Positions 2,441-51,890 of a DNA stretch of 64,000 bases are shown piece by piece. The position numbers and the translations under genes are program-made. The notes under the pieces are model-generated. The model did no database searches. It had not been told where the DNA came from and saw nothing but the letters and a program-made list of their open reading frames with translations. The stretch's first letter is position 1. Each line of letters opens with the position of its first letter. The DNA is taken from assembly GCF_004359215.1 (NCBI RefSeq), contig NC_090610.1:3500827-3564826 (forward strand). The letters run 5' to 3'. The stretch comes from Bremia lactucae (lineage: Eukaryota > Oomycota > Peronosporomycetes > Peronosporales > Peronosporaceae).

Positions 2441-5400
2441 TGATGGGGTGGATCCCACGTCCAATAAATTATTGACAGCGGGTCCAGTCGTCATTTGGTG
2501 ACAACAGCTGCACAGCTGCATGATCCAGTAGAGTGCGAAGAAGAATGCTTGCTCCCGAACGGTGAGACCATGAAGATGCAGCTTAAGGGAAGTGCTACAT
2601 TCAAGGCTTGCGTGGACGGTGAAGTTCGCCAAGTCACCCTACGTGAAGTATACTATGCACACAACCTACCATGGAATATTATTTCATATGGCAAGATAGA
2701 GGAGCTGGGATACGAGCTCTGCTATGACGGGCTAAAACGTTACGTTGGCCGTCGAAGTAACAGGTGTAAAGTGTTTGATGTGCACAAGGATGCAAGCAAC
2801 GTATTGGTTGTAAAAGTCGTCAATGCTGAGGCGAAGAAGGACGTTGATTATGTGATTATGGCTCTCGCTGACGCAGTGAATGCGTCGTGCAGCGATGTGC
2901 AGTGGGGGGGGGGGGGTCTATTGGATTTCCATCTGCGTTTTGGCCTTCTTTCATACGACACAATAGAGAGCATGGCACGTGACCCTGGAAGTGTGATATG
3001 TCTTACGGATAAGGAAAGGCCGACTTGCGTGACATGTGCTCACGGCAAAAAAAAGCGCAATAACCAATCGCGGAAAGACACAGGACGGAACGCACCCATT
3101 GATAGAGTTGGCGGTGTCATTTGCAGCGACATCAAGGGGCCGATCACTCCAGCCGACAGACTTGGAAACTGATACATGATTAATTTTGTTGATCATAAAA
3201 GCAATTACTGTCGCGTATTTCTCGCCAGGACCAAAGACAAGGCATTTAAGCAGTTCGAGCAGTTCCTCGTCTACTTTGAAAAGCGCTTTGATTGCAAAGT
3301 ACATTGCCTTCGAACAGATGGAGGAAGTGAATACAAGGTTGTGGATCCATTTTGAAGAGCAAAGGTGTACGCCGACAGATTTCGGAAGCTGACAATCAAG
3401 CATCAAACGGGATAATGGAACGTACGCACCAGACGATTATGAACATGGTGCGCTCAATGATCTTTGCTTGCCTTTAAGTTTATGGGGCGAGGCAGCGGAA
3501 TATGCGGCTTATATTCTGTACCGCAGCCCTTCTCAAGGAAATATTGGACACTCATCACCTATTAAAGTGCTGACAGGGATTAAGCCTATCCTGACTGACA
3601 TTGTCATCTTTGGCTCACCGTGTACTGCTATACGTAAACCAAAGCTGAAGGCACTCGACAGACGCGGAGAGGAGGGAATCATTATTGGTAAGAATGATGA
3701 AATTAAAGGATACCGCGTATTGTTTACGAAGGACCGGGTGGTGCATACAACCCAACACGTTCAGAATATCAAGACACTAAGCAAAGAGGCGAATAATCGG
3801 CTCATTCGATAATGCGATGTTGCAGTTGAGGCCGAGATGGGCGAAGAGAAGACCTTAAGTACTTGTGAGGTCTTCTCTTCGCCCATCAACGATATTGGAC
3901 ATAATCGGGAGGAGTCAAACGCCAGACCTCAGAAGCGGAAAAAGCGCGGTACGCGTGGAGGTCAAGGAAAACGTTTGAGTCAAGAAGCCGCTGATAGAAA
4001 GGAAGTGACTAGCCCTGGTTCGGGCATGGTAATACGATATGGTGGGAAGAAAATCCCACCACGCGAGATTATTGGGGCAGTGTATCATGAAGATCCTACT
4101 TGTTGAAAAACTGCTATGAAGAGTGATAAGCGCGTCGAATGGGAGCGTGCAGCAAAAGTTGAGACTAATTCGCTGGTCGCAAACGGAACGTGGGAGATAG
4201 TGCCCCGCACTGATGATATGCGCCCGCATCACACGAAGTGGGTATTTAAAACGAAAGAGATGCGAATGGTAACGTGGAGCAGTATAAGGCACGCATGGTG
4301 GCGTGTGGAAACGAGCAGTCGCTGGGCGAAAATTACACACTGACATTTGCCGCGGTCATGGATATGACGACGAGTAAGGTAATTTTGGCACTGTCACAAA
4401 TATGGGGCGTGCCAGCGCGACACGGTGATGTGCCCAACGCATATGTCAAGGCGTAAACGGAGCCAGAAATCGACATTTATTTGTTTGTACAACAGGGTAT
4501 GATTGTGGACGATGCGGACCTTCAGCGGCTTTGACTGCAGCATTCTGGACAAGTGGTTTTACGACATCAGCGCAGTCTGTATGGTCTGAAGCAAGCTGGC
4601 CGACTTTGGTCAGAGCTTCTTCAAAAGGAATTGCTAGGAGCAGGTTTCGCCCAATGTATGAAAACACCTGTCTCTATTTCAAAATCGACAGCAGTGGTCA
4701 TACTATTGTTGAAGTGTATGTGGAGAATTTACTGGCGACAGGGACAATAACGTGTGGATCAAGTTTTTATTTTCTTGACAACACTGCAGATCAAGAACTT
4801 GGGAGTCGTCAATAAATTCCTAGGCATGCGAATTTCTTATTCGGCTGAGAATGGGTATGACATCGATCAAGAAGCGTCTATTGATGGGACGTTAATGAAG
4901 TTTGGTTAACAAGATGCAAAATCCTATTACGACACCGATTGGACTCGATTATGATAACGATGTGCGTGACGTGGTCCAACTTCTTCCCAAGGATAGTCCA
5001 GATAGAGGCGCATCGGTGCAGAGTTTCCAGTCCATAGTTGGATCCCTATTGTGGCTAGCACGCTGCTCACGCCCCGATATTGCATTTGCAGTCCACCGAG
5101 CGACTCGCCGAGCGCTTGCGCCAACATCAACCGACTGGAAGCTGGCCAAGCGAATCGCGAAGTACCTAAAAGGAACCAAGGATGTGAAACTACGGCTCAA
5201 GTAAAACCAAGATACAAACAATTCCGTCCTGGAACTTACCAGCATAAGCGACGCGGATTTCGCCGGCGATAAGAGCAGTCGTAAATCGGTCAGCGGCGGA
5301 AGATTCTGCTTGAACGGCATGATTGTGGGCTGGACGTGTCGCAAACAGGCGGCCGTCGCGATTTCAACCATGGAAGCAGCATTTGCGTCAGCGTCACACG

Positions 5401-29557: not shown

Positions 29558-30964
29558 TTAAGTATAACTCGAAAAGAAATCGCGTAAGGGAGCTAATCGA
29601 TCATATCGAAATTTATGTGCCGAAAAGTGGATCGACGTGGAGCCATTTGACGTCGTTGGTGGCACTTGATCAATCTTGTACATTAAGGGTACAATCTTTA
29701 GCTGTAGATTCGGGTCATTGGTAAACTCGGTTCGGTCCATCCATTCCGTGTACGAATCCGTCACTTCGACGCGATAGATCCGAGCATTTTTAGGAGCATA
29801 CGAAAAGAATGCGAATTCAACTGGTAATTCCGAATACCGGCAGTATGGACACCACGGACGTTTGTTGTTTGGAAAACGACCCGAAACCATTAGAACGAAT
29901 GTCGGCACTGGGTGGTTTTCGTTTTCAAATTGCGTCATGGTGTCTACATAGGCGTCATACCCGCGAATGGTAATCAATTGCTTGTGCTGGATTGCATTGG
30001 CGGGAAACAAGAGCTTTCGTTCATCCGTCGTTTGAAAGAGATAGCTTAAGAATGGTTCGTCGTATAACGATGTTTGGACAAGCATGCCAGATGTCCGATT
30101 CTTCTGACCTTCCCATTTTAGGATTGAAGGTACGCTTTTAATTTTTAAATTAAAATTATTGTAAAAGGCATTTTGATGGGTCCAATACTTTTCGGATCCA
30201 GCATAGATTGTTACGAGTCGATTACGACGTGAAGAGTGGGAAAAAATATTGTAGACGTGCTTTTTGCTTTGACGACACTCTTCCGACCAATCGTGCGCTT
30301 GAAAGAGGGCATCACTACATACGAAAAACAAATAGAGCGATTCGCTGGCATTAAACTGATAGGCGTTTAAGAACTCGAGTGTCGCGGTGTATCCAGAAAT
30401 GGTCTCGTTTCGTAAAGAAGAGAACTGTTCCCTTCGAGTGAATGTGGCAGGAATCGCAGTTATTGGATTGGAAAGCGATTGAATTGGAGCTGCTTGTGGC
30501 TGAAAATTAGCTTGATTCTTCGATGTGTTTGTAATTCTTTCCGCTTCTTGTACTGACAAAGTTGCATTTTTTTCTAAAGTTGACGAATGTATGAAATTCT
30601 TTGATACTCGAAGTGATTTTATTGGAACTGAAGTTATTGCGACTGGAAGAATAGGTGGCGAAGACGTAGCAATTACGGCTTTTATTGGAAGTTGGTGCGT
30701 ATGTTCTTTCCGTTGGCGCTGTATTGTATTCGTATCATCGAGGAGTAAATCGTCAGGATGGATTTGAATCGAATGCCTTGATTTTCGTAGATTATTGAAC
30801 GTCATCGACGCGTCTAGCGTCGCAAAATTACCAAAACGCCAGTACAAAAGAAACAACAAGTACACGATAAAGAAAGCGCCACCAAGGAGGGTCCAGATGC
30901 TCGTCAATTTACGTCGGGAAACGCCATAGCGACGTCGACGCGGTCGATACCGAGACACTTCCAT
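29558..30964 (-). CDS. Type II membrane protein with two TXNDC17-like domains, paralogue A
   Basis: 468 residues, ATG start, intronless. A very basic N-terminus (RYRPRRRRYGVSRRK) precedes one membrane segment at about residues 25-42, so the bulk should be lumenal or extracellular. After a spacer come two thioredoxin-like domains of the TXNDC17/DUF953 kind. Domain 2 has WCPYC at about residues 371-375, followed by YRVEVTDSYTEWMDR and a VP before the last strand. In domain 1 the matching site is WSEEC, so only the second cysteine remains. Domain 1 keeps the RLVTIYAGSEKYW and SVPSILKW blocks. It is the last of four tandem paralogues on this strand; paralogue B starts 1.4 kb away with a 114-bp spacer. 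Confidence 0.83.
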   Translation of the reverse strand: MEVSRYRPRRRRYGVSRRKLTSIWTLLGGAFFIVYLLFLLYWRFGNFATLDASMTFNNLRKSRHSIQIHPDDLLLDDTNTIQRQRKEHTHQLPIKAVIATSSPPILPVAITSVPIKSLRVSKNFIHSSTLEKNATLSVQEAERITNTSKNQANFQPQAAPIQSLSNPITAIPATFTRREQFSSLRNETISGYTATLEFLNAYQFNASESLYLFFVCSDALFQAHDWSEECRQSKKHVYNIFSHSSRRNRLVTIYAGSEKYWTHQNAFYNNFNLKIKSVPSILKWEGQKNRTSGMLVQTSLYDEPFLSYLFQTTDERKLLFPANAIQHKQLITIRGYDAYVDTMTQFENENHPVPTFVLMVSGRFPNNKRPWCPYCRYSELPVEFAFFSYAPKNARIYRVEVTDSYTEWMDRTEFTNDPNLQLKIVPLMYKIDQVPPTTSNGSTSIHFSAHKFRYDRLAPLRDFFSSYT

Positions 30965-31078
30965 TAGTAACTCGACTCTTTTACAATTTTAGTCAATGAA
31001 AAAATGAGTATAAAAAAATACACGCAACATTTTGAATAACAAACAATTACAATAAAAAACATTTGTGTTTTTATACAT

Positions 31079-32362
31079 TTAGCTCTGAAAAATGCTTCGC
31101 ATGGCTTCTGGGTGATCAAAACGCTCAATCACACGATTTAAACTCACCGTGTGCGCCAATGTATCTACCGTGGCTCGAAACATCCACGGCACGCCTCGCA
31201 ACGATACTGTTGTATCGGATTTCCACTCATTCGTAGGATTCTTCCAAATCGCGTACGAGTTGGTGGTTTCGACTTTCACAAGTCGTGATCCTGGTGGTGC
31301 AAATGCATAAAACGCATACTCGACCGAGATCTCCGAGTACCGACAATACGGACACCAATACCGGTTATTACCTTGTAAGCGGCCCGAGATGAAAAAGAAA
31401 AACAATTCTCCTTTTGGAATCGTAATTAATACATTTCGTTCAGTTGCAATGGCTTGAATGTATTCCCGATAGTGGGCATGTCCTTGAAGTACGACAATTT
31501 CTTTTGATGCAATCATTTCGGGACGAAGCAATAAATCTGGACGATCCGTGGTTTTAAACAAATACCGCACCAATGGTTCGTATAAAATCGTTTCTTCCAG
31601 CATCATATTCGATGTTGCACGTTTTGCATGAGGTCGGCCACCATGCCATTCCATAAGCGCTGGAATCATCTTGACTTTTAAATCCCCATCGTTATAAAAC
31701 GCATTCGAAGACGACCAATCAATTTGCGTCCCTGCGTAAATCGTAACCAATCGATTTGGTGCCGAAGACTTGGCAAACACGTTGTAAACTACCGTCGAGG
31801 CATCGACGCAAATCTTTCGCCACGTTGTTTCCTGTCCATGTTCATTACCGCATACAAAAAACAAAAAAAGCCGCTCATTGGAAGTTACAGGGATACTGTA
31901 ATTCGCGAGATACTTTATTGCCGCAGCGTAACCAAAGACAATATCGTGACGATTAGGAACCGAAAATGGGAATTGAGAAATTGGGTTTTTTAAATCTGCG
32001 ATTGATAACGAATTTGATGTTTCTTGTTTTTTCGGGGACCTTAAAAATGGTCCTACAGTCGATTCAGATGGCTGATTGGCCGTATTTGCCACTTTCATGG
32101 CAACTGGCGCGGGTTTCTCGGCAACAACGACGGAGGGTTTGATTTTATCCGAAGTTTTTATCGCTACTGGCTTGATTAAAGAGCGCTGAATAACGACGGT
32201 ATCTCTCTCGGCGGTGATGACGTTCGTGCGCATATCGACGACAACTGTGGAGGACCATATCCATACTTGAAAATGGATCATGTAGTATAGAGCGGCAATG
32301 CCTACGGCTACAATAAGCCATCGCTGGGGCCGAGAGATGCTAGGTTGACCTTTTGACAACAT
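31079..32362 (-). CDS. Type II membrane protein with two TXNDC17-like domains, paralogue B
   Basis: 427 residues, ATG start, intronless. The membrane segment is at about residues 15-35 after a basic head. Domain 1 has LFLFFVCGNEHG then WRKIC at the active site, so the first cysteine is lost. It keeps RLVTIYAGTQIDW and MIPALMEWHGG. Domain 2 has an intact WCPYC at about residues 336-340, followed by RYSEISVEYAFYAFAPPGSR and GVPWMF. By length and motifs it is closest to A and C. Known TXNDC17 is a small cytosolic reductase, so anchored, doubled forms are a departure from the family. Confidence 0.83.
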   Translation of the reverse strand: MLSKGQPSISRPQRWLIVAVGIAALYYMIHFQVWIWSSTVVVDMRTNVITAERDTVVIQRSLIKPVAIKTSDKIKPSVVVAEKPAPVAMKVANTANQPSESTVGPFLRSPKKQETSNSLSIADLKNPISQFPFSVPNRHDIVFGYAAAIKYLANYSIPVTSNERLFLFFVCGNEHGQETTWRKICVDASTVVYNVFAKSSAPNRLVTIYAGTQIDWSSSNAFYNDGDLKVKMIPALMEWHGGRPHAKRATSNMMLEETILYEPLVRYLFKTTDRPDLLLRPEMIASKEIVVLQGHAHYREYIQAIATERNVLITIPKGELFFFFISGRLQGNNRYWCPYCRYSEISVEYAFYAFAPPGSRLVKVETTNSYAIWKNPTNEWKSDTTVSLRGVPWMFRATVDTLAHTVSLNRVIERFDHPEAMRSIFQS

Positions 32363-32559
32363 TGTTCGTCTTCTAAAGGTGCCACGTACATATTCGATAC
32401 AAGAACAAGGTGCAATTTTGACTGCGTTTTATATTTAGGTTATTAAATTTAGATAATCGAGCACCTAAAGAAAGGTTATCAGAATTACGTCTGCACTTAA
32501 TTGGGTAGCCTCGAGCTTCCCTGCAAAACTTTATTAAAAAATCCATGCGACCTTCTTTT

Positions 32560-34149
32560 TTAATTCTTAGTCTTTACAACGAAAGTCGAATCTTGAAAAA
32601 GTTCTTGCAAATCCTCATGCACGTAAAATTTCTTCTTCACACGCTCAAATGTAAGCAATTGACCCTTTTGGCTTGGATAAATGCGATAGAACCACGGAAC
32701 GCCTTTCATTGCGAGCTGAGGGTCCACTTTAAATGGATTCTCTGGATCGTGCCACTCACTTTGTCTGTCAAACGTTTCAACTAGGACCAACTTTGCATGA
32801 GGTGGTGCAAACGCGTAAAACGCATATTCCACGGGCAATTCAGCCTGTCGACACCATGGACACCAAAGGCGATTATTGTGTGGTAATCGCCCTGAGATCA
32901 TCATTATATAAAGTGGATACATTGTTGCCTTCATAACGTAACCTTTCGTAAACGCTCGAAACGACGCGTAACCCTCCAGTGTAACAATCTCCTTCGTCGC
33001 GACTTCTGACTTCCTGAAGATACTGTCTTGAGCATTAAGGGTACGAAAAAGATAGCGCACAATCGGGTCAAACAAGATCGAAGTATCCACTAGAACCCCC
33101 CACGTCGAACGCAACGCGCCAGGGGTACCCCCATCCCAACGCAGAATTGTAGGTAGAGCCTTAAGACGAAGATCTTTGTCTTCCATAAAAGCGTTTGTAT
33201 GATTCCAATCACAATACGGGCCTGCATAGATCGTGACAAGACGATTGGTTGACGGCGATTTGGCAAAGATCGCATAGACTTTTTCACGAGCAATCCGGCA
33301 ATTGGGATTCCAATCGTTAATACTACCATTTCTATTGCTGCATGTAAAGAAGAGAAATACCTCAATAGATGAATTCACAGGCTTTGTGTACGATGCAAGA
33401 TACGCTAACGTAGCATTGTAACCAATGACTTTGTCATGTCGTTCCTCGAATGTCAATTGATTGATTCGTGTGGATACAAGTCGTGACATATCAAAGTGTC
33501 TTGACTTCAGTAAAGGAATAAATGGTAAGGTTTGATTCACAATAGTATTCGCAAAGCTACGTCTCGCATCAGGAACCTGAGTATTTAGCTGCATTCGTTT
33601 TTCGTCAGCCATCGGTAACTTCTTTGCGTCCGTGTACAAGTGATACGTGGTATTGTTAATTGTCTTTGGACTCAAAGTTGTAACTGCAGTAGTATCCATT
33701 CTTTTCAAATTCAAACGTGAAAAACTTATCAATTTGCTTTTATTCTTCTCCATAGAATCCTCCAATGCACTCCTTTTGGCAGTACTTGATCCATTCTCGA
33801 CTGGATTCTCCATCAGCAACCCTTTTAATGAATGATTCAAACGACTTCTAAAGACTTTCTTATCTCCCAAAGGCGCTTCTATCTCCGTGGCTATACGATC
33901 AAGTGCGTTTATATCATACGTCGTATCCTCGTCCACAATCATCTGCGCTGAATTTAAAAGCTGCGTTCTTTCATCGTTAATTGCTTCCTCGATTAATTTC
34001 TCCTCGGCTATAGCACGAAAGGAACGTACCCACATGGTCGTTTGAACCATAAATACACCGTAAAATAACACAAGCGTTGTAATCGCGATTGCCCATACAT
34101 GTCGACGTACCCACAGACATGGGTTACGACCGCGACGTCGATTTTGCAT
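32560..34149 (-). CDS. Type II membrane protein with two TXNDC17-like domains, paralogue C
   Basis: 529 residues from the ATG of MQNRRRGRNPC; the open frame continues 21 codons to a TTG that I do not use. The membrane segment is at about residues 20-40 (AIAITTLVLFYGVFMV). It has the longest spacer of the four, about 170 residues, between membrane and domain 1. Domain 1 reads FLFFTCSNRNG and WNPNC: the first cysteine is lost. Domain 2 has WCPWC at about residues 428-432, then RQAELPVEYAFYAFAPPHAK and GVPWFY. The spacing to paralogue D is 98 bp. Confidence 0.83.
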   Translation of the reverse strand: MQNRRRGRNPCLWVRRHVWAIAITTLVLFYGVFMVQTTMWVRSFRAIAEEKLIEEAINDERTQLLNSAQMIVDEDTTYDINALDRIATEIEAPLGDKKVFRSRLNHSLKGLLMENPVENGSSTAKRSALEDSMEKNKSKLISFSRLNLKRMDTTAVTTLSPKTINNTTYHLYTDAKKLPMADEKRMQLNTQVPDARRSFANTIVNQTLPFIPLLKSRHFDMSRLVSTRINQLTFEERHDKVIGYNATLAYLASYTKPVNSSIEVFLFFTCSNRNGSINDWNPNCRIAREKVYAIFAKSPSTNRLVTIYAGPYCDWNHTNAFMEDKDLRLKALPTILRWDGGTPGALRSTWGVLVDTSILFDPIVRYLFRTLNAQDSIFRKSEVATKEIVTLEGYASFRAFTKGYVMKATMYPLYIMMISGRLPHNNRLWCPWCRQAELPVEYAFYAFAPPHAKLVLVETFDRQSEWHDPENPFKVDPQLAMKGVPWFYRIYPSQKGQLLTFERVKKKFYVHEDLQELFQDSTFVVKTKN

Positions 34150-34247
34150 GGTTAAAATGGACGTACCCAATTTAACTGCAATGGACCCATTTCTAGTTAA
34201 AAAAAACTGCAACGATAGACTTTTTTTTTGTTACTATTATACCGGTA

Positions 34248-35303
34248 TCAACCCGAATGGGGCCGAATAAACCGTGGTTTATTCTTTAAAAACGTCTGTA
34301 GTTTCTTCGTCTCCGAGTAATCTGGCAAAAATTGATGCACAATGACCTTATTTGCAGGGACGTCCTTCTTGACAAACCCAAGAAAGGGGACACTTTGTAT
34401 CGACGCGACTTTTTCCTGAAATTCCGGTTGCTTAAACGGATTAATTTTCTTTTTCCACTTGCTAAACGACGGTGCTACGACCACGCGTACCAGTACCGCT
34501 TTGTCAGGTGCCGTGTAATTAAAATGATGCATCACCACAACATCTGCGCGATCACAATACGGACACCATAGACGTCCATTAAAGTCGTGGTATCCAGACA
34601 CAAAATACAAGAACAGCGGGTAGCTATTATCGTACGTGCTAACGTAATTAATCACGTCTCTCGGTGTATCCATCGTCAGTACCTTGTTCCGATTCGGTTT
34701 ACCAGCTAATGGCTTATTCACTCGAAACACGTAATCAAGCAAATTTGGGTCGGTACAAAATTCTTCTGTCAATAAAGTCGACGAGTTGCCACCGCCATCA
34801 TACCGCAAAAGAGTCGGTATATGATCGAGATAGAACAGCTGGTTCTGGCGAAAGTCATTCATATAATTCGCCCAATACGAATGCGAACCTACGCGAATTT
34901 CAACAAGTCGCGAACCGCGTGGCGCACGATTAAATGCGTCCATGACGGGCTTTTTCGCGCGTTCACAGTCTGGACACCAGTATTGTCCGTCCTCGTTCGC
35001 GTCACTCATGACTAGAATATACAATGGACCTTGCGTCTCGACGTCGTATTCACTGATAAACTTGTGGCCAGCTTCGAAACCCTGGAGGTGAAGCACCGAG
35101 TGGCCTAGTACGCGATTGCGCACCACGCCGCGTTCGTCTGAGTCCTCGGACGTTTTTGCCGAATGTAGCGTGATACTTATTGACACGAATTGGTACATGT
35201 ATATCATGGAAAAAACGATTGTCACGGCAAAAGCCAGTTGCATCAAGCGCACGGGGCTCAGCTTCGTACCAAGCGAGCCCTTGCGTTCCTCCTTTTCTAC
35301 CAT
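34248..35303 (-). CDS. Type II membrane protein with two intact TXNDC17-like domains, paralogue D
   Basis: 351 residues from the ATG of MVEKEERKGSL; 13 further codons upstream begin with TTG. The membrane segment is at about residues 20-40. Both thioredoxin-like domains keep CxxC: WCPDC at 109-113, exactly the TXNDC17 active site, and WCPYC at 246-250. The cis-proline blocks are HIPTLLRY near 163 and QSVPFLGF near the end. Domain 1 also keeps RLVEIRVGSHSYW, like the YWKDP region of TXNDC17. With the shortest spacer and both sites intact it probably resembles the ancestor of the cluster. Confidence 0.85.
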   Translation of the reverse strand: MVEKEERKGSLGTKLSPVRLMQLAFAVTIVFSMIYMYQFVSISITLHSAKTSEDSDERGVVRNRVLGHSVLHLQGFEAGHKFISEYDVETQGPLYILVMSDANEDGQYWCPDCERAKKPVMDAFNRAPRGSRLVEIRVGSHSYWANYMNDFRQNQLFYLDHIPTLLRYDGGGNSSTLLTEEFCTDPNLLDYVFRVNKPLAGKPNRNKVLTMDTPRDVINYVSTYDNSYPLFLYFVSGYHDFNGRLWCPYCDRADVVVMHHFNYTAPDKAVLVRVVVAPSFSKWKKKINPFKQPEFQEKVASIQSVPFLGFVKKDVPANKVIVHQFLPDYSETKKLQTFLKNKPRFIRPHSG

Positions 35304-42941: not shown

Positions 42942-43041
42942 NNNNNNNNNNNNNNNNNNNNNNNNNNNNNNNNNNNNNNNNNNNNNNNNNNNNNNNNNNN
43001 NNNNNNNNNNNNNNNNNNNNNNNNNNNNNNNNNNNNNNNNN
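42942..43041. other. Assembly gap (100 N)
   Basis: Exactly 100 N, a placeholder of unknown true size inside a gypsy RT. The sequence after it does not continue the RT frame. Confidence 0.99.
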
Positions 43042-50519: not shown

Positions 50520-51890
50520 GAGCCGATTATTCGCCTCTTTGCTTAGTGTCTTGATATTCTGAACGTGTTGGGTGGTATGCACCACCCGGTCCTTCGAAAA
50601 CAATACGCGGTATCCTTTAACTTCATCATTCTTACCAATAAATATCCCCTCCTATCCGCGTCTGTCGAGTGCCTTCAGCTTTGGTTTACGTATAGCAGTA
50701 CACGGTGAGCCAAAGATGACAATGTCAGTCAGGATAGGCTTAATCCCTGTCAGCACTTTAATAGGTGATGAGTGTCCAATATTTCCTTGAGAAGGGCTGC
50801 GGTACAGAATATAAGCCGCATATTCCGCTGCCTCGCCCCATAAATTTAAAGGCAAGCCAGGCCCAAAGATCATTGAGCGCACCATGTTCATAATCGTCTG
50901 GTGCGTGCGTTCCGTTTTCCCGTTAGATGCTTGATTGTCAGCTTCCGAAATCTGTCGGCGTACACCTTTGCTCTTGCAAAATGGATCCACAACCTTGTAT
51001 TCACTTCCCCCATCTGTTCGAAGGCAATGTACTGCGCAATCAAAGCGCTTTTCAAAGTAGACGAGGAACTGCTCGAACTGCTTAAATGCCTTGTCTTTGG
51101 TCCTGGAGAGAAATACGCGACAGTAATTGCTTTTATGATCAACAAAATTAATCATGTATCAGTTTCCAAGTCTGTCGGCTGGAGTGATCGGTCCCTTGAT
51201 GTCGCTGCAAATGACATCGCCAACTCTATCAATGGGTGCATTCCGTCCTATGTCTTTTCGCGATTGGTTATTGCGCCTTTTTTTGCCGTAAGCACATGTC
51301 ACGCAAGTCGGCCTTTCCTTATCCGTAAGACATATCCCACTTCCAGGGTCACGTGCCATGCTCTCTATTGTGTCGTATGAAAGAAGGCCAAAACGCAGAT
51401 GGAAATCCAATAGACTCCCCGACTGCAAATCGCTGCACGGCGCATTCACTGCGTCAGCGAGAGCCATAGTCACATAATCAACGTCCTTCTTCGCCTCAGC
51501 ATTGACGACTTTTACAACCAATACGTTGCTTGCATCCTTGTGCACATCAAATACTTTACACCCGTTATTTCGACGGCCAACGTAACGTTTTAGCCCGTCA
51601 TAGCAGAGCTCGTATCCCAGCTCCTCTATCTTGCCATATGAAATAATATTCCATGGTAGGTTGTGTGCATAGTATACTTCATGTAGGGTGACTTGGCGAA
51701 CTTCACCGTCCACGCAAGCCTTGAATGTAGCACTTCCCTTAAGCTGCATCTACATGTTCTCACCGTTCGGGAGCAAGCATTCTTCTTCGCACTCCACTGG
51801 ATCATGCAGCTGTGCAGCTATTGTCACCAAATGACGACTGGACCCGCTGTCAAGAATCCATTGGACGTGGAGTTCCACCCCATCAGCAAC
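50520..51890 (-). pseudogene. copia copy 2 protease and integrase
   Basis: The retropepsin block WILDSGSSRHL lies near 51850. The pre-integrase domain is at 51749-51159 and shares the TGA stop after DRLGN with copy 1. The integrase core continues in another frame at 51155-50652 (NFVDHKSNYCRVFLSRTKDK, LRTDGGSEYK, NGKTERTHQTI). Confidence 0.88.

Follow-up and report, generated by a model that had tools for sequence, protein, structure and literature searches.

The four adjacent genes described here, together with a fifth paralogue, encode proteins that would form an oomycete family of signal-anchored proteins, with an outer part built of two TRP14/TXNDC17-type thioredoxin folds in tandem. In three of the proteins (A, B, and C) the first cysteine of the CxxC motif has been lost from domain 1, and another cysteine stands upstream of the active-site Trp, at a distance of exactly 10 residues, yielding, together with the retained cysteine, a CX13C pair. 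This suggests that domain 1 of A–C has been rewired and not simply broken. The joint reading we prefer, to which we give about an even chance of being right, is that of a membrane-anchored double TRP14-type family, in which domain 2 is catalytic and domain 1 of A–C is a disulfide-stapled docking or regulatory module.

The window, that is, the whole analysed stretch of 64,000 nucleotides, contains genes A (29558–30964, 468 aa), B (31079–32362, 427 aa), C (32560–34149, 529 aa), and D (34248–35303, 351 aa), all on the minus strand and all intact ATG open reading frames; the motifs given in the preliminary description are read in these frames. Proteins A and C have a predicted anchor and a long stalk, B has an anchor helix (11–39) and a mostly disordered stalk, and D has an anchor helix (17–44) and a short linker. 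In domain 1, the cysteines are C216 and C230 (WSEEC) in A, C171 and C185 (WRKIC) in B, C270 and C284 (WNPNC) in C, and C110/C113 (WCPDC) in D; in domain 2, they are C372/C375 (WCPYC), C337/C340 (WCPYC), C430/C433 (WCPWC), and C247/C250 (WCPYC), respectively, and the four named for A are the only cysteines of that protein. The fifth paralogue, E, lies outside the window, on the same contig about 64 kb past D. The three gaps of the window are at 42942, 47641, and 57491, and there are no runs of N inside the A–D cluster.

Each of A–D contains two stretches matching PF06110 (Pfam, TXD17-like) with E-values from 3.3e-20 to 5e-34 and scores of 72–117 bits against a cut-off of 23.1, and thus the proposed doubling of a TXNDC17-type domain holds. 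In the Pfam scan of A–D (E up to 10), PF06110 was the sole family over its cut-off and none of the PDI-type thioredoxin families reached theirs; the only other thioredoxin family listed was Thioredoxin_7 in D, with 12.8 bits against the 27 needed, and NCBIfam gave no match over cut-off. The structural comparison covered AlphaFold (AF2) models of B and D, with domain 2 barely included. Both models have a TRP14-type thioredoxin fold, and both comparison programs place TRP14/TXNDC17 structures at the top of the solved matches (1wou and 7xq3/7xpw being the best). Weaker Foldseek matches include QSOX1, ERp44, calsequestrin, and PDO; for the two-domain entries shown, both TM-scores stay under 0.4. 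A–E are PF06110 domain proteins, but in architecture they are not TRP14 orthologues.

In several oomycete species A, B, D, and E have orthologues whose locus tags are neighbours or whose contigs are of equal length, and linked relatives are found in many oomycetes. The aligned set comprises 97 sequences, namely, 59 of the A/B/C type, 20 of the D type, and 18 of the E type. Candidates shorter than 0.55 of the query length were left out of the protein searches, hence single-domain relatives would not be visible there, and the third search scored the 7994 candidates sharing most words. In Bremia, PF06110 (E up to 1) yields ten matches, all within A–E, and no single-domain TXNDC17 gene, of which an intron-split form could escape such a scan. 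In the tree, domain-1 and domain-2 sequences separate with SH-aLRT 98, which places the domain duplication before the gene duplications. The trees need two changes to account for the loss of the domain-1 nucleophile; since a single clade of nucleophile-less sequences is not rejected (p-AU 0.243), two independent losses are not claimed, and this scenario was dropped.

The domain-1 motifs of A–C agree with the earlier suggestion that the nucleophile was lost and the fold kept, the fold being seen in the models of B and D. The accompanying statement that A–C keep just the second cysteine is not supported in that form, as there is an invariant companion 14 residues upstream. Cysteine occupies the position 10 residues before the Trp (Trp-10) in the first domains of 59 out of 59 A/B/C-type sequences, none of the 20 D-type and none of the 18 E-type ones, and in none of the 97 second domains. 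In domain 2 of the A/B/C type this position is Ser (37 out of 59) or Ala (22 out of 59). The position of the lost nucleophile varies (Ser in 34 sequences, Arg in 20, Lys in two, and Met, Asp, and Asn in one each), whereas both remaining cysteines of domain 1, as well as Trp226 and Pro279, are invariant in the A/B/C type. From domain 1 onward, 31 of these 59 sequences have four cysteines, 24 have five, two have six, and two have three, so that in about half of them there is no other possible partner. In the model of B, C171 comes right after strand 164–170, and the first turn of helix 183–197 contains C185; the loop block 171–180, starting at C171, is the least certain part of the domains (mean pLDDT 83). 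The trait is confined to one branch, so the 59 sequences represent one event that has been kept, not repeated gains.

Mean pairwise identity among the A/B/C-type sequences is 0.578 in domain 1 and 0.533 in domain 2, with domain 1 below domain 2 in only 294 out of 1711 pairs; the same lean is seen in the D type (0.676 and 0.628) and in the E type (0.780 and 0.760). Because its identity is at least that of domain 2 and Pro279 is invariant, domain 1 of A/B/C is, judged by sequence conservation, not a decaying relic.

Domain 2 has a CxxC motif (CPYC, CPFC, CPWC, CHYC, or CLYC) in 95 out of 97 sequences, and CPFS in the other two; both of these are of the A/B/C type (two out of 59), and thus the domain-2 dithiol is not universal. 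In A–D the motif is CPYC or CPWC, WCPDC being restricted to domain 1 of D. Domain 2, with its glutaredoxin-like CPYC, is best read as the putative catalytic unit. Its CP[Y/F/W]C motif would be the working thiol–disulfide centre in nearly all members, probably in the reductase direction; for TMX1, the available part of a review takes a Pro in second place of the motif as a sign of a reductase (PMC7563315). Protein D, ancestral-like in having two active sites, also keeps the TRP14-like CPDC of domain 1 as a second centre and might be a two-centre oxidoreductase. In domain 1 of A–C the exposed nucleophile has been lost, and its place would be taken by two cysteines, one where the preceding strand ends and the other the one retained in the helix. 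Their CX13C pair would most likely form an intradomain disulfide that fastens the active-site helix to the end of that strand, and the stapled domain could serve as a stable docking or regulatory module offering clients to domain 2. In A–C the pair of domains would sit at the tip of a long flexible stalk, probably on the lumenal side.

The relocated pair of A–C may itself be redox-active, with the former resolving cysteine and the one at the strand end forming a reversible couple that exchanges electrons with domain 2. This appears rather unlikely to us. It would agree with the invariance of both cysteines (59 out of 59), while the old nucleophile site varies, and with that of Trp226 and Pro279; moreover, of the four distinct TXNDC17/TRP14 proteins matched in PDB, two have an equally spaced cysteine alongside their intact CxxC, and for one of these the title of a 2022 paper reportedly mentions redox regulation. 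However, invariant cysteines and a kept fold are equally expected of a structural disulfide, and a buried pair, with no exposed nucleophile apparent, would probably exchange slowly. It is likewise unlikely, in our estimate, that domain 1 of A–C is a new redox centre, with a reversible CX13C coupled to the domain-2 CPYC, and that the paralogues are a graded set, in which D would have two classical centres, A–C one classical and one relocated, and E one classical centre and a blocked site.

That domain 1 of A–C is a plain non-catalytic fold, with cysteines metal-bound or free and the strand-end one merely tolerated, is quite improbable: elsewhere in the family the Trp-10 position is indeed variable (Thr, Ser, Ala, Met, Val, Leu, or Cys), but within A/B/C the cysteine never varies, in contrast to the Ser and Ala of their own second domains. 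Still less probable is the earlier proposal of a lone thiol, in which the second cysteine that remains would form a mixed disulfide with domain 2. In E-type domain 1 the nucleophile position is Phe or His and the second cysteine is nonetheless retained in 17 out of 18 sequences, which fits this proposal better than A–C do, although P0074 lacks the thiol as well; in A–C, the intradomain companion cysteine argues against it. Thus, the "binding module" of the preliminary description survives in the docking or regulatory role that we prefer, while the lone-thiol partner is not the simplest reading for A–C. An assembly artefact, to which tandem paralogues are in general prone, or a set of recently broken copies has a negligible probability and is ruled out by the intact frames, the orthologues in several species with neighbouring locus tags or contigs of equal length, and the conservation across 59 sequences.

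The anchor stands as a prediction: each of A–D has an N-terminal hydrophobic stretch (Kyte–Doolittle mean over 19 residues 1.76–2.19), and the predicted topology is type II. As to orientation, positive charge is greater ahead of the stretch than behind it, with a median difference of +5 in A/B/C, +2 in D, and +3 in E among sequences where the stretch is clear. A simple hydropathy rule finds no clear N-terminal anchor in seven out of 59 A/B/C, two out of 20 D, and five out of 18 E sequences, which gene-model starts or fragments may explain. N-glycosylation sequons at N173 and N262 of D are conserved (18 and 19 out of 20 D sequences, respectively, and 18 out of 18 E sequences for both), and for D and E this supports the lumenal location suggested earlier; for A–C the support is only indirect, as no sequon is conserved in A/B/C (17 out of 59 in the best column).

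The likeness to TXNDC17/TRP14 lies in the PF06110 sequence and fold and in the WCPDC motif of D domain 1, which is that of TRP14, called a cytosolic oxidoreductase in the available portion of an EMBO J paper, where it is also stated to be inactive in reducing insulin (PMC11217419). Unlike TRP14, A–D have a predicted N-terminal anchor and two domains, the second with a glutaredoxin-like motif (CPYC, or CPWC in C), and A–C alone have the relocated cysteine pair; with the conserved sequons of D and E, the family does not fit the notion of a single-domain cytosolic protein. TMX proteins resemble it in that their thioredoxin folds are tethered to a membrane and that some, such as TMX2 (SNDC) and TMX5 (CRFS), lack one of the active-site cysteines, but they are a separate sequence family, and A–D lack a PDI-type match over cut-off; moreover, TMX1 is a type I protein whose domain belongs to the N-terminal, lumenal part, the TMX2 site faces the cytosol, and the part of the review available describes no TRP14-type tandem or CX13C pair for TMX (PMC7563315). 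Other tandem thioredoxin folds (QSOX1, ERp44, calsequestrin, protein disulfide oxidoreductase) show a weak likeness to the modelled proteins B and D and belong to separate families. Joining a catalytic and a non-catalytic thioredoxin fold is a known design, found in several tandem proteins with an inactive fold and also in AhpF.

Among the open-access matches listed, no publication is devoted by title to this family; TXNDC17 combined with oomycete gave no match in the open-access literature, and none of the DUF953/thioredoxin titles concerned oomycetes. If the pair is a disulfide, A–C would offer a clear example from nature of a thioredoxin active site being rewired through the shift of one cysteine. 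If the preferred reading is true, TRP14-type domains, cytosolic as described in the available text on TRP14 (PMC11217419), would lie across a membrane, and their reductant on that side would then call for an explanation. The intact (D), rewired (A–C), and blocked (E) forms share one stretch of a contig and have been kept across many oomycetes.

The four genes of the cluster, A (29558-30964), B (31079-32362), C (32560-34149) and D (34248-35303), are intact ORFs on a single (minus) strand, as had been described from the sequence, and their domain 1/domain 2 motifs were re-read identically: WSEEC/WCPYC in A, WRKIC/WCPYC in B, WNPNC/WCPWC in C, and WCPDC/WCPYC in D. The preliminary description of two TXNDC17-like domains per protein is confirmed by Pfam, PF06110 (TXD17-like thioredoxin) matching twice in each of A–D with 72–117 bits (cut-off 23.1). 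Local pairwise alignments give 24–42% identity among the paralogues. The contig containing the window measures 16,032,334 bases, within a 116 Mb genome; a fifth paralogue, E, is matched at C1:3600311-3601297, ~64 kb past D, to which it is 46% identical. Its 353-aa ORF (L016:3779-4840, minus strand) carries the motifs WFQPC (domain 1) and WCPFC (domain 2), its motif stretch being that of Bremia lactucae CCR75_003699 (P0076). The whole-genome profile search yielded ten PF06110 matches, two apiece in A–E, and none outside these genes.

Domain 1 of A, B, and C contains an extra cysteine that precedes the active-site Trp by exactly 10 residues (Trp-10) and the retained second cysteine of the motif by 14. 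Among 97 homologue rows, it is found in domain 1 of 59/59 A/B/C-type rows, which were sorted by this cysteine itself, 0/20 D-type rows (Met 19, Val 1), and 0/18 E-type rows (Met 10, Leu 4, Val 2, Thr 2); the corresponding domain-2 residue is Ser (37) or Ala (22) in A/B/C, Ser (19) or Val (1) in D, and Ser (18) in E. The sorting was tested by a tree with the trait columns blanked, where A/B/C form one side of a branch (support 100), and the nucleophile, the first CxxC cysteine, is absent in every row on that side. The retained cysteine is present in 59/59 A/B/C, 20/20 D, and 17/18 E rows, and the lost position in A/B/C varies freely (S 34, R 20, K 2, M 1, D 1, N 1). Thus, with the old site free and both cysteines of the pair in 59/59 rows, what selection seems to maintain is the new pair instead of the old site. 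As D and E are gapped by one residue at the Trp-10 region of the MAFFT alignment, the move may also have lengthened or shortened the strand end by one residue; measured by distance to Trp, the positions correspond. Four distinct TXNDC17 proteins were matched in the PDB; in OhTRP14 and 22fg, CxxC is intact and a cysteine likewise stands at Trp-10, which is occupied by Thr in human TRP14 and by Ser in the mouse protein. The Trp-10 cysteine may thus be long established at this position and not an innovation. The distinctive trait of A/B/C is the Trp-10 cysteine combined with the loss of the nucleophile.

Decay of domain 1 in A/B/C is argued against by its slightly higher mean pairwise identity, 0.578 vs. 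0.533 for domain 2 (lower in 294/1711 pairs), a lean not peculiar to this group, since D (0.676 vs. 0.628) and E (0.780 vs. 0.760) share it. In the separate-domain phylogeny (25 rows each, one long-branch warning), domain-1 and domain-2 rows are split by a branch with SH-aLRT 98, as expected if the domain duplication predates the gene duplications. A/B/C (25 rows) and E (nine rows) are single clades in the careful tree, both 100/100, with D-type rows surrounding E. Two losses of the nucleophile are most parsimonious (2 changes), and a single loss is not rejected (p-AU 0.243). Among the 18 E-type rows, only P0074 (Phytophthora kernoviae) has both domain-1 motif cysteines gone (F..S); the E relatives P0055 and P0057 have His for the nucleophile (WHPDC), where E has Phe.

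The relatives, 101 proteins from protein searches, all come from oomycetes where the organism is named (Phytophthora, Nothophytophthora, Plasmopara, Peronospora, Hyaloperonospora, Bremia, Pythium, Globisporangium, Lagenidium, Albugo, Aphanomyces). The first 78 proteins were typed by whichever of A–D gave the best score, the rows used by their motif and place in the tree. Gene linkage is retained in Phytophthora species: locus tags 7781 (A), 7782 (B), and 7785 (D) in P. boehmeriae, 18787 (D) and 18790 (A) in P. capsici, 1589 (B) and 1590 (A) in P. pseudosyringae, g13925 (B) and g13926 (A) in P. rubi. P0079 and P0080 are annotated as B–A fusions. The A, B, D, and E rows of Hyaloperonospora brassicae are each on a 472,386-base contig, which we take to be the same one. 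No C orthologue from Phytophthora was retrieved among the 101 relatives; paralogue C, on a long branch, joins only P0022 and P0023 (support 94/91). Aphanomyces has the D form, with CxxC in both domains.

A predicted anchor, i.e., a hydrophobic stretch reaching the threshold within the first 80 residues, is present in 52/59 A/B/C, 18/20 D, and 13/18 E rows, with positive charge greater on its N-terminal side (medians). Where the anchor is predicted, a long linker leads to domain 1 in A/B/C (median 158 residues, 100–297) and a short one in D (median 29) and E (median 42). Two in-domain N-glycosylation sequons are nearly invariant in D and E (the first in 18/20 and 18/18 rows, the second in 19/20 and 18/18), in support of a lumenal or exterior location; no A/B/C sequon is conserved to that extent (best column 17/59).

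Domain 2 carries CPYC, the motif of dithiol glutaredoxins, in 56/59 A/B/C and 16/20 D rows, and CPFC in 18/18 E rows. In the C-type relatives P0022 and P0023, it reads CPFS, the resolving cysteine being gone, and would be monothiol, with the relocated domain-1 pair retained. Pairing of catalytic and non-catalytic thioredoxin folds is a known design. Pro at the second motif place has been read as a reductase sign for TMX1 in a review (PMC7563315), and TRP14 with TrxR1 reduces cystine and cysteinylated proteins (PMC11217419). Given these data and the CPYC/CPFC motif, we propose that these proteins are anchored thiol reductases targeting small disulfides or client proteins beyond the membrane, and domain 1 of A–C would be a docking or regulatory module stapled by a disulfide; we infer the disulfide, electron donor, clients, and reaction direction alike. 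TMX2 and TMX5 are also described as membrane-tethered thioredoxin folds with a cysteine lost (PMC7563315). No title among the matches listed (best 20 for the broader topics) concerned doubled, anchored TXNDC17 proteins or a relocated cysteine pair.

The Pfam-identified neighbours of the cluster (window 10002-38642), namely, a dual-specificity phosphatase, isocitrate lyase, a PH-VPS9-PDZ protein, IMP dehydrogenase, a PX protein, and a START protein, have no evident redox tie. Farther out, ORFs of 200 aa (2570-3172, plus strand) and 196 aa (51159-51749, minus strand), very similar over the first 70 residues compared and oppositely oriented, give the impression of retrotransposon polyprotein pieces.
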